From: an uncultured beta proteobacterium
GTDB taxonomy: Bacteria; Pseudomonadota; Gammaproteobacteria; Burkholderiales; Burkholderiaceae_C
Length of the DNA: 37,049 nt
NCBI GenBank assembly: GCA_903914615.1
Contig: CAIWPS010000147.1
Coordinates: 1 to 37,049 of the forward strand
Reading direction: 5' to 3'
Position numbers and translations under genes: made by a program. The notes beneath the pieces were generated by a model that was given only the letters and a program-made list of their open reading frames with translations, was not told the DNA's origin and did not search any database. Positions within the stretch are counted from its first letter, which is position 1, and every line of letters begins with the position of its first letter. Below are positions 9,250 through 13,941 of this stretch, in pieces.

Positions 9250-9617
9250 GGCTTGCCTCGCGTGAGGGATTCAACGGCGGTTTGCAGGTTGCCGATAGGC
9301 CCGAGAAACTTGCCGAGCATGCGGTGCTGTTCACGAAGCGCCTCGACGATCGGGGTCTGTGCGGCCACGGTCTGGGCCATGAGGTCCGTCAGCCGATCGA
9401 GCCTGCGCGCCTGCTTGTCGACCTTGCCGTGCAGCGCTTCCACGCGGATCGGCAGCGGCGCCAGGTAGGTGTTTTGCGCGTGCACGTTGAGCTCGACGCC
9501 CCCGTACCGCTCCGCGTTGGCCTTCTCGAGCTCCTCCAGGCGCGCCGCGAGCTCGCGCAGTGCGCCCGGTACCGAGCGGGGCCGCTTCGCCGGCGCGCGT
9601 GGCGTTCGCGGCTTCAC
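9246..9617 (-). CDS. Coiled-coil hypothetical protein
   Basis: This is a 123-aa protein with a GTG start at 9617 forming a GTGA overlap with the upstream stop. A basic N-terminus is followed by long amphipathic helices (LRELAARLEELEKANAERY; VEALHGKVDKQARRLDRL) that suggest a coiled-coil oligomer. There is no membrane segment. Not recognised. Confidence 0.7.
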   Translation of the reverse strand: MKPRTPRAPAKRPRSVPGALRELAARLEELEKANAERYGGVELNVHAQNTYLAPLPIRVEALHGKVDKQARRLDRLTDLMAQTVAAQTPIVEALREQHRMLGKFLGPIGNLQTAVESLTRGKP

Positions 9618-10027
9618 CGGCTAACGTCCGCGCGGCGCAGGATGGTCACGCGCACGCCGTAGGTTTTCTCGACGACGGCGATCTTCACCCGGCTGGTCTG
9701 CGTCATAACGCCCTTCGTGTCCTCGATGGTGACGACGTCGTCGGCTGAACCGCTGCGGTTCCACACGACGAGAAAGTCCGCACGGTAGACCACACGGGGC
9801 GCGACGTCAAACGGCACTTGCCGCAGGAAGTACCGGACCTGGCCCCACTGCACCAGCTGCACGAGCTCGCGGTAGCGGTCCGCCTCGAGCTTGGAATCGA
9901 AGCGGATGCCGTTGCAGACCGTCGCCCGGTTCGCGAATTTCCCGCCGACGCGCTCGCTGAGCACGGGTGGCAAGTCCGCCGCACCGCCGCGCCGGCGCGC
10001 GTAGGCGGTCCAGGCGCTACGCGTCAC
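9614..10027 (-). CDS. DUF1064-type nuclease (PD-(D/E)XK fold)
   Basis: The start is placed at GTG 10027 (137 aa) because GGAGGG lies five bases upstream; ATGs at 10048 and 10054 lack a good ribosome site. The sequence fits DUF1064: IRFDSKLEADRYRELVQL with the first acidic residue, then RADFLVVW and IEDTKG as the D...(D/E)xK metal site. The family is thought to act as an endonuclease or resolvase in phage recombination, replication or packaging. The neighbouring origin and initiator gene support a DNA-metabolism role. Confidence 0.8.
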   Translation of the reverse strand: MTRSAWTAYARRRGGAADLPPVLSERVGGKFANRATVCNGIRFDSKLEADRYRELVQLVQWGQVRYFLRQVPFDVAPRVVYRADFLVVWNRSGSADDVVTIEDTKGVMTQTSRVKIAVVEKTYGVRVTILRRADVSR

Positions 10028-10226
10028 GGGCACCCTCCGCACGGTCATAGCCACAGGCGTTTTTGGCCGCGGCCAGGGACAGGAACGTCCCGAGCGGGTG
10101 CAGCCGGGTCCCGCCCATGAGCCGCTCGACGCGGTAGGCCCTCCAGCACTCCGGGCGGATGTACGTCACCCGGTAGCCCTCCGCGTGGTGGGTCCCGAAA
10201 TTTCCGAGCTCCTCGGTCCAGTCCAT
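10017..10226 (-). CDS. Small hypothetical protein
   Basis: This is a 69-aa alpha/beta-looking protein (GYRVTYIRPECWRAYRVE). Its ATG at 10226 has a good ribosome site (GGGGGAG, seven bases upstream). The stop lies 8 nt inside the next gene's GTG start, typical of this operon. Not recognised. Confidence 0.68.
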   Translation of the reverse strand: MDWTEELGNFGTHHAEGYRVTYIRPECWRAYRVERLMGGTRLHPLGTFLSLAAAKNACGYDRAEGARDA

Positions 10227-10277
10227 GGCCTTCTCCCCCTTGCCAAACTTCTCGGCTCCGCGGTCGCTGCCGCAAAG

Positions 10278-10286
10278 TTATCCACA
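10278..10286 (+). promoter_or_regulatory. Perfect DnaA box (TTATCCACA)
   Basis: TTATCCACA matches the DnaA box consensus exactly. It lies between the initiator gene stop and the next gene, beside an AT-rich patch. It is in the same orientation as the repeat array at 10568-10611. Confidence 0.7.
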
Positions 10287-10296
10287 GGGCTCTAGA

Positions 10297-10327
10297 TTCT
10301 TAGGATTTGTTCTTAGTTCTAGTTCTG
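10297..10327. promoter_or_regulatory. AT-rich repeat patch, candidate DNA-unwinding element
   Basis: TTCTTAG at 10297 and 10310 (13 bp apart), followed by TTCTAG at 10317 and TTCTGG at 10323, form an AT-rich block unusual for this GC-rich genome. It sits between the DnaA box at 10278 and the iterons at 10328. Origins commonly place a melting element beside such repeats. The role is inferred. Confidence 0.5.
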
Positions 10328-10791
10328 GTCCGCATTTTGTCCGCAATGTGTCCGCATTGCGTCCGCACCGCGTCCGCTCGCGTGGTACGCTTGCGGTCGG
10401 CGTCGACTGCCCGACGCTTCGCTAAGGTGCCGTTATGATTGTGGAAATTCGGGAGCGTTACCTGGCCGTCGACGACTTGAAGCCACTCCGGCGGGAGGAG
10501 GTCGCAGATGCCCTTAATGCCGGTGAATTGGTCTACGTCGTCCGGAGTGAACGGAGTACGGTCGAAATCATCCACAGCCTGCTCACAGGTTATCCACAGG
10601 ATACTCACAGCCCCGATGGCCATGGCGACAAACGCATTATGGTCAATCGGGGTTTGAGTTCCGCCGGTGACGCGGCCCCGATCGCGGGCGGCTAACTCGC
10701 GCGCGATTCGGTGGATCCGTGCATCCAGGTAAAGGCTCTTTTCGAGCTTGACCCAGGGGCCCTGGTGGGCTGGCCGTGGGGGCCTCGTCAT
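10300..10791 (-). CDS. Replication initiator, RepO/DnaD-like N-terminal type
   Basis: This is a 163-aa protein. The start WVKLEKSLYLDARIHRI, the middle IKGICDLLPPEWLQV and the signature LPNFHNHNGTLAKRRAVDAD resemble the N-terminal winged-helix part of phage replication proteins of the lambda-O/replisome-organiser type, where 'F-HNG-AKRRA--A-R-KR' is common. No C-terminal helicase-loader domain follows; the tail is Arg/Lys/Thr-rich. The ATG overlaps the HTH gene stop (ATGA). The coding region contains two 11-bp-phased repeat arrays and is flanked by a DnaA box, so the gene probably contains the origin, as lambda O does. The assignment is by pattern, not search. Confidence 0.7.
   Translation of the reverse strand: MTRPPRPAHQGPWVKLEKSLYLDARIHRIARELAARDRGRVTGGTQTPIDHNAFVAMAIGAVSILWITCEQAVDDFDRTPFTPDDVDQFTGIKGICDLLPPEWLQVVDGQVTLPNFHNHNGTLAKRRAVDADRKRTTRADAVRTQCGHIADKMRTRTRTKNKS
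10328..10382 (+). repeat. Five 11-bp iterons (core GTCCGC)
   Basis: Units start at 10328, 10339, 10350, 10361 and 10372: GTCCGCATTTT, GTCCGCAATGT, GTCCGCATTGC, GTCCGCACCGC, GTCCGCTCGCG. The first six bases are invariant and the period is exactly 11, about one helical turn. Because 11 is not a multiple of three, the repeat cannot come from a repeated peptide, although it lies inside the coding 3' end of the initiator gene. It probably binds the initiator protein. Confidence 0.85.
10568..10611 (+). repeat. Four 11-bp DnaA-box-like repeats inside the initiator gene
   Basis: Units are TCATCCACAGC (10568), CTGCTCACAGG (10579), TTATCCACAGG (10590) and ATACTCACAGC (10601). All share CACAG with an exact 11-bp period. 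The third contains a perfect DnaA box and the first differs by one base. The period does not match codons. This looks like a helically phased DnaA-binding array forming part of the origin. Confidence 0.82.
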
Positions 10792-13023: not shown

Positions 13024-13340
13024 CACTCAACCACAACCTGAGCGTCGCGACGCTCCTCGCGACCGCGCACGCCCTCGTGCGCCGCGGATTCGAGACGGAC
13101 CTCCTGCGGCAAGGGCCGCTGGCCGCGAAGGAACGCCCGCGGTCGCGGGGCTTCCGGTTCTCGCAGGTGCGCTCGCCGTATTTTTTGTCGCCGACGGTCA
13201 CGACGTATGACCGGCGCGGCCCGGACACGCTCATGGCCGCGCAGGACAAGCGCGTCCGCAAGGCCCTCAAGAGGGTGCGCGACCAGAACCGATGCGCGCA
13301 CGGGCAGCTGGCGCGGCAACCGCTGCGGGGGCTGCTGTGA
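13020..13340 (+). CDS. Basic hypothetical protein
   Basis: 106 aa from ATG 13020 (ATGA overlap). It is strongly basic (RRGFETDLLRQGPLAAKERP; RVRKALKRVRDQNRCAHG) with an aromatic middle (RFSQVRSPYFLSPTVTTYD). Charge suggests nucleic-acid binding but no motif is recognised. Its stop overlaps the next ATG (TGATG). Confidence 0.68.
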   Translation: MTLNHNLSVATLLATAHALVRRGFETDLLRQGPLAAKERPRSRGFRFSQVRSPYFLSPTVTTYDRRGPDTLMAAQDKRVRKALKRVRDQNRCAHGQLARQPLRGLL

Positions 13341-13597
13341 TGGGCACCGTATCGGTCAACGTCCAAGCGCAGGTGTTCGTCGACGAGGAGGTCGACGTCG
13401 AGCTCCGCGAGCTCGTCGAGGACCTTACCGACGACCAGGCGCAGGAACTCCGCGAGCTTCTCGAGCGCAGGCTTGCCCTGGCCGGCAATGGCCGCGGCGA
13501 CTTGCTCGAGGCGGCGTACCTCGCCATGCGCGGCCGCGCGGACTGCCCGGACGTGCTGCGCGAGTATTTTTGGAAGGTGCTGGGGAGGGTGTTATGA
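13340..13597 (+). CDS. Acidic helical hypothetical protein
   Basis: 85 aa from ATG 13340. It is rich in Asp/Glu/Leu (EEVDVELRELVEDLTDDQAQ, ELRELLERR), probably a helical bundle or short coiled coil. Its acidity contrasts with the very basic product of the preceding, overlapping gene, so a partner pair is possible but unproven. Not recognised. Confidence 0.68.
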   Translation: MGTVSVNVQAQVFVDEEVDVELRELVEDLTDDQAQELRELLERRLALAGNGRGDLLEAAYLAMRGRADCPDVLREYFWKVLGRVL

Positions 13598-13941
13598 CGG
13601 ATCAGTTGCAGGAGCCCGCCACGTTCGTGTGGAAGCCCATGGGCATGATGCTCGAGCGCGTGCATGGCACGTTGGTTGACGAGGCGGCGCCGCGGTTCGT
13701 GCTGCTGCTGGACTACCGGCGCGACATCCGCCAGGCGCGGCCGAAGTCGCCCGCCGCCGATGCCGTGTCGTTCGTGGCCATGCGCGAGTGCGAGCGCCTG
13801 CAAGGGTTTCCCGACGACTACACGGCGATCCCGTATCGCGGCAAGCCGGCCAGCGACGGCCCGCGCTACAAGGCGCTGGGGAACTCGATGGCCGTTCCGG
13901 TCATGCGCTGGATCGGCGAGCGGATAGGTCAGGTCAAGTGA
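13594..13941 (+). CDS. C-terminal-only cytosine-5 DNA methyltransferase-like protein
   Basis: 115 aa from ATG 13594 (ATGA overlap); upstream track sequence is a shadow. Residues about 64-73 (RECERLQGFP) followed by DDYTAIP match motif IX, and residues about 92-103 (YKALGNSMAVPV) match motif X of C5 methyltransferases, in the form usual for phage Dcm proteins. Motif I (DLFSG-like), the catalytic PC motif IV and ENV motif VI are absent here and nothing in the window supplies them. So it cannot methylate alone. It may be a degraded remnant, a domesticated DNA-reading stub, or a subunit of a split enzyme. Residues 1-50 are not recognised. Confidence 0.78.
   Translation: MTDQLQEPATFVWKPMGMMLERVHGTLVDEAAPRFVLLLDYRRDIRQARPKSPAADAVSFVAMRECERLQGFPDDYTAIPYRGKPASDGPRYKALGNSMAVPVMRWIGERIGQVK

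Follow-up and report, generated by a model that had tools for sequence, protein, structure and literature searches.

Five short repeats with an 11-bp spacing at the 3' end of a replication initiator gene were characterised in contig CAIWPS010000147.1 (37,049 bp, hereafter the window, i.e. the whole stretch of DNA analysed) of the uncultured beta proteobacterium assembly GCA_903914615.1. Judged from their sequence and that of related phage genes, the repeats are most likely initiator-binding iterons of a phage replication origin, overprinted on the coding sequence of the initiator. The putative origin extends beyond the array itself (10328-10382) and spans approximately positions 10274-10600. 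The array belongs to a large class with the same 11-bp period, present here in a form that is flanked by DnaA boxes and accompanied by a truncated initiator.

The iteron array and its initiator gene

The hexamer GTCCGC was found on the plus strand at positions 10328, 10339, 10350, 10361 and 10372, in one orientation and with a step of 11 bp throughout, which confirmed all five positions given in an initial annotation of this DNA. The repeats had been described there as five exact 11-bp iterons. The exact step held, and exact identity was confined to the 6-bp core: the units (GTCCGCATTTT, GTCCGCAATGT, GTCCGCATTGC, GTCCGCACCGC and GTCCGCTCGCG) share GTCCGC in five of five and the 7-mer GTCCGCA in four of five, with differing spacers. 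Besides its own one-base offset TCCGCA (four copies), GTCCGC was the sole hexamer in the window repeated at least four times at a constant spacing of 7–25 bp, and the longest chain in 300 order-1 Markov shuffles of the window was two. The four neighbouring pairs at 11 bp were matched by 0.05% of 2000 synonymous-codon shuffles of the initiator gene. Three consecutive units had no second occurrence elsewhere in the 5.9-Mb assembly. The array sits at the 3' end of the minus-strand open reading frame (ORF) 10300-10791, which encodes 163 amino acids (aa), and its period necessarily runs through all three codon phases, in agreement with the earlier description of the protein tail as one repeat read in three frames.

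The encoded protein was matched by PHROG 2509, 'replication initiation protein', over residues 57-156 (E 7.7e-18). The match ends at profile position 135 of 277, where full-length members reach 277; the N-terminal region and the linker of the family are present in the window protein and the C-terminal half is missing. No Pfam match was obtained at E up to 1, also none to a plasmid Rep family (two winged-helix domains), and the only family that matched was one of phage initiators. The earlier label of a RepO-type initiator stands as far as membership of a phage replication-initiator family is concerned, but homology to lambda O was not detected by Pfam. The AlphaFold2 model had a mean predicted local distance difference test score (pLDDT) of 87.9. 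Structural alignment with VIA-align gave Z scores of no more than 5, with solved plasmid initiator domains at about 4 and not above unrelated rows. A Foldseek search of the long relative L160 against the PDB returned no significant match, nor did profile searches of solved structures yield anything of use. The best viral-model match of the window protein was an uncharacterised protein (E 1.8e-4), followed by 'Primosomal protein 1' (2.5e-3). No match was found by tblastn against phage records, nor by a single-protein search of viral contigs or two genome-contig scans, and close relatives were reached only via alignments, family profiles and the DNA motif.

Better-known members of PHROG 2509 are the initiators of epsilon15, SPN1S, phiPSA1 and Xanthomonas phages and YdaU of Rac; that of epsilon15 ends in a Pfam DnaT domain. 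A second such initiator, with 52% identity to the window protein, is encoded in the same assembly (contig C511, locus L004). An 86-aa plus-strand ORF (10435-10695) lies antisense to the initiator gene and has look-alikes antisense to L004 and L211; it probably just mirrors conserved sense codons.

Conservation of the period in related genes

Viral contigs were scanned, blind to protein sequence, for three exact TGCGGACA units at the 11-bp period. The motif alone retrieved 38 contigs, with a chance expectation estimated at far below one. In 24 of these the array lies within a gene of the PHROG 2509 family according to hidden Markov models (HMM), and a weak PHROG match adds L043.

For comparison across the family, 65 representatives with less than 75% identity were used. 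Same-orientation pairs at exactly 11 bp numbered 56, against 1.9 +/- 1.3 (maximum 6) in 200 synonymous shuffles, and iteron motifs numbered 395 against 200 in synonymous shuffles, with all three codon phases occupied. When no motif was specified, a lag of 11 was the commonest repeat distance both in the 3' linker (40/65) and in the 5' part (35/65). Orientation shifts on a constant period: epsilon15-like relatives, at fixed DNA phases, typically carry GTCCGC pairs 11 bp apart, a 13-bp step and then GCGGAC pairs 11 bp apart, and on this same backbone L118 has three consecutive GCGGAC where L064 has three GTCCGC and one GCGGAC. The core also differs by group, being GTCCGC in the epsilon15 group, GTCACG/GTTACG in the nearer relatives of the window and GTTACC in Pseudomonas, Xanthomonas and Rac phages.

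The 11-bp arrays thus persist over 65 diverse members while peptide, reading frame, orientation and core sequence vary, and in L004, L158, L189, L196 and L198 the array straddles or runs beyond the stop codon. We therefore conclude that selection acts on the DNA. The alignment of relatives had been set beforehand as the refuting test of the claim that the period serves DNA and not peptide, and it shows the period kept and the peptide varying. In the predicted structure of L160, residues 126-151, which make up most of the iteron-coded linker, have a pLDDT below 50, and this linker is presumably disordered.

Most long relatives (e.g. L160, L168 and L063) carry a second array of the same class near the gene start, often in a variable loop of the N-terminal domain, with a possible role in looping, handcuffing or autoregulation. 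In 38 of 40 genes the 5' and 3' arrays belong to one class, which would be expected of two arrays read by a single protein. No description of the 11-bp arrays was found in a search of the open literature, and the arrays are unmentioned in the annotation of those relatives' records that were examined.

Arrays of TGCGGACA at 11 bp were also seen inside a different gene in nine viral contigs (L008, at 1428-1904 on the minus strand, and L009, L013, L022, L025, L030, L031, L033 and L035). Its product begins MKKEIRIR, is about 159-170 aa long, has no PHROG match and looks ribbon-helix-helix-like by eye at the N-terminus; it is possibly an unrelated protein with the same iteron, or the origin may have been relocated. 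In the near-identical contigs L017, L036 and L039, two dense GCGGACA arrays are separated by about 200 bp and were not placed in the initiator family; in L036 and L039 a member of that family lies elsewhere on the fetched contig.

Unstable DNA, DnaA boxes and gene context

In 34 of 66 family members, C(T)AGA and a short-period repeat come immediately after an iteron core, a combination absent from 192,585 bp of flanking control DNA. Translated, this element reads REEKRRE in epsilon15-like proteins, PDQDQDQ in others and TRTRTKN in the window. The probable unwinding element beside the array (Table 1) had a nearest-neighbour sum of -59.9 compared with -65.7 for the next peak in the window, and 48 of 66 relatives had the instability peak of the linker within the top 1% of the locus, compared with 13% for random stretches. 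Cumulative GC skew of the window marked no origin.

Exact DnaA boxes occur twice in the window (10278 and 10590), on either side of the array, where shuffled windows average 0.025. The DnaA encoded in the assembly is an ordinary one, and perfect boxes adjoin its gene. The C-terminal half is absent from the window protein and five relatives (133-163 aa), and these six short initiators form one clade (support 100/100) nested in the long GTCACG/GTTACG group. All six have, 161-164 nt ahead of the His-Asn codons, a DnaA box with no more than one mismatch, and five have another such box 151-167 nt after these codons. Exact boxes were present in 5/6 short and 1/60 long initiators (Fisher p 4e-6, the six short ones being mutually related). 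Wider genome searches returned no short initiators beyond the six; L211, considered as a further one, turned out to be long.

Within the short clade GCGGAC is found only in the window; the sister L004 has CGTGAC in the same layout. The end branch of the window protein measured 0.85 changes per site against 0.036 for L004, on a tree in which the placement of long branches is uncertain, and the concerted change of all iterons therefore coincides with fast change of the protein.

According to the model that we propose, each helical turn would be occupied by one initiator molecule, all of them on the same face of the DNA, and the bound complex would strain the adjacent AT-rich CAGAAC-repeat tract until it melts, as the stability and position of the tract suggest. 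In long relatives the C-terminal domain (DnaT by Pfam in epsilon15) probably aids recruitment of the helicase. DnaT is described as an adapter between PriA-PriB-single-stranded DNA and the DnaB/C complex (PMC4132743), and iteron plasmids open with the help of DnaA (PMC5043065); from this we infer that host DnaA takes over delivery of the helicase where the initiator is short. By analogy with those plasmids, host DnaA would probably act at the window origin through the two flanking boxes, helping to open the tract and to deliver DnaB. A scenario for which we see slightly less than an even chance is that the initiator of one clade of temperate phages was reduced to its DNA-binding part, with helicase delivery passed to host DnaA and DnaA boxes fixed around the origin, one of them in the Leu-Trp-Ile-Thr codons of the initiator itself. 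The phage of the window would in addition have exchanged its whole iteron set, from CGTGAC to GCGGAC, amid fast protein change and with the flanking layout kept, which would amount to a change of initiator-iteron specificity.

Table 1. Features of the putative origin and of its surroundings (window positions).
Feature	Position	Strand	Basis and remarks
DUF1064 / Holliday-junction-resolvase-like gene	9614..10054	-	Downstream of initiator gene; Pfam DUF1064 E 4.7e-8, phrog_190 E 1.4e-18
Probable DNA unwinding element	10274..10323	.	Least stable 50 bp of the 37-kb window, beside array
Exact DnaA box TTATCCACA	10278..10286	+	Just 3' of initiator gene
Initiator gene, 163 aa	10300..10791	-	PHROG 2509, tree, AlphaFold2; short form without the C-terminal domain of relatives
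Repeat tract CAGAACTAGAACTAAGAAC	10309..10327	-	Abuts last iteron (CAGA junction); junction seen in 34 of 66 family members
Five iteron cores, 11-bp spacing	10328..10377	-	GCGGAC on coding strand, GTCCGC on plus strand; repeat scan, shuffles, same DNA motif in relatives
DnaA box, one mismatch	10568..10576	+	Sole further site in the window with at most one mismatch
Exact DnaA box in initiator gene	10590..10598	+	Box scan; codes Leu-Trp-Ile-Thr (residues 65-68)
Helix-turn-helix gene, 66 aa	10788..10988	-	End overlaps initiator start; HTH_31 E 1e-5, just under curated cut-off

The small helix-turn-helix gene and the initiator gene probably share an operon. A DUF1064-like ORF follows the initiator in 6/6 short forms, and an ORF with a Walker-A motif, as judged by a regular expression only, is close downstream of 12/58 long initiators. 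No DnaB_C or IstB/DnaC-family match was found on the window contig (C147), and no lambda P-type family among the window ORFs tested, a subset of all ORFs. Genes for an integrase, terminase subunits, a head-tail adaptor, a major head protein and internal virion proteins were recognised in the window, which therefore looks like a temperate podovirus. At the end of the plus-strand ORF 13207-13941, a stretch of only about 50 residues matches DNA methyltransferase families and is possibly a cytosine methylase fragment.

Alternative explanations and known systems

Several observations weigh against a DnaA-assisted origin read by the window protein. No significant solved structure was returned for this protein by Foldseek against the PDB, and a DNA-binding fold could not be firmly assigned. 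Most GTCCGC relatives have a 5' array of the same iteron class as well; in the window that class occurs in the 3' array only. Among short initiators L196 is without the 3' box, and the association of the clade with DnaA boxes may reflect one evolutionary event. The single long initiator with an exact box, that of epsilon15 (L143), has it 167 nt after the His-Asn codons and just past the AT-rich tract, though DnaT is kept there. Many long initiators, moreover, are without an obvious loader gene directly after them. In another reading the array is the phage origin and is bound by the initiator, the DnaA boxes being there by chance or for regulation, and helicase loading falls to the restart pathway of the host or to a phage protein that escaped recognition. 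Several window genes without a family match leave room for such a loader, and long relatives work without DnaA boxes; but the window has no exact boxes other than the two on either side of the origin, and the box within the gene is preserved in every one of the six short initiators with no more than one mismatch. We consider this alternative rather unlikely.

The remaining alternatives do without an origin. A transcription operator, bound by the initiator or by the neighbouring helix-turn-helix protein, would agree with the position of the latter's gene immediately upstream and with the second array near the gene start of relatives, which could regulate expression; it is improbable, given that the 3' array is more than 400 bp downstream of the start codon, beside the least stable DNA of the window and the DnaA boxes, and that array class tracks the initiator family. 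A promoter and terminator scan, made with the sigma-70 consensus only, was empty, with no promoter-like site nearby. Selection on a basic peptide tail for non-specific contact with DNA or protein, with the DNA period as a by-product, is suggested by the Arg/Lys-rich tail and by charged linkers such as REEKRRE in many relatives. One DNA layout, however, yields the unrelated peptides TRTRTK, PDQDQDQ and REEKRRE, close relatives have arrays that continue beyond the stop codon, the period is lost on synonymous shuffling and the linker is modelled with low confidence in a long relative, all of which makes this explanation very improbable. Short phased repeats also serve as partition sites, but a centromere-like or packaging site is the least probable reading of all for an array that lies within a replication-initiator gene beside an unstable tract and DnaA boxes. 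An integrase gene is present in the window, and a non-exhaustive search of tested ORFs recognised no partition gene.

Taken as an initiator-bound origin, the array would provide a sequence rule for phage origins, namely an 11-bp array followed directly by CAGA repeats within an initiator gene. The common REEKRRE, PDQDQDQ and TRTRTK tails would be explained as translated origin DNA instead of functional peptide. Long and short initiators would offer a natural comparison for the trade of own helicase recruitment against host DnaA, and homologous initiators with differing iteron classes a set for working out initiator specificity.

Among known systems, the PHROG 2509 initiators of epsilon15, SPN1S, phiPSA1 and Rac (YdaU) share the N-terminal family and arrays in the coding sequence, and epsilon15 and phiPSA1 also share the GCGGAC core and the CAGA junction. 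These relatives differ in keeping the C-terminal half and usually a second array near the gene start, whereas the window has only the 3' array, its units all oriented alike and flanked by two DnaA boxes, and encodes a short protein. Rac, for which an active origin, oriJ, has been reported (PMC3945230), was considered as a known example; the text consulted gives no position for it relative to ydaU.

The lambda origin within gene O, with which the initial annotation had compared the array, resembles it in having iterons in the initiator gene beside an AT-rich tract that is strand-asymmetric (PMC5043065). In lambda, four iterons of inverted-repeat character are bound by O dimers, with P as the helicase loader (PMC7466680, PMC5043065), and the described model has no DnaA boxes (PMC7466680, PMC5043065). 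The window has five direct 11-bp repeats, no O homology detectable by Pfam and no recognised loader. The sensitivity of the Pfam and fold searches is weak, and distant kinship with lambda O is compatible with their results. The comparison was right in kind: the gene belongs to a phage initiator family, and the unstable tract and DnaA boxes give the locus an origin-like make-up. It has to be modified for the direct iterons, the lack of O homology detectable by Pfam, the missing C-terminal domain, the probable help from DnaA and the larger extent of the putative origin. Iteron plasmid origins (P1, F and RK2) share helix-phased direct iterons, an AT-rich opening region and DnaA boxes (PMC5043065, PMC10797057); in the window the iterons are instead overprinted on a phage initiator of another family.
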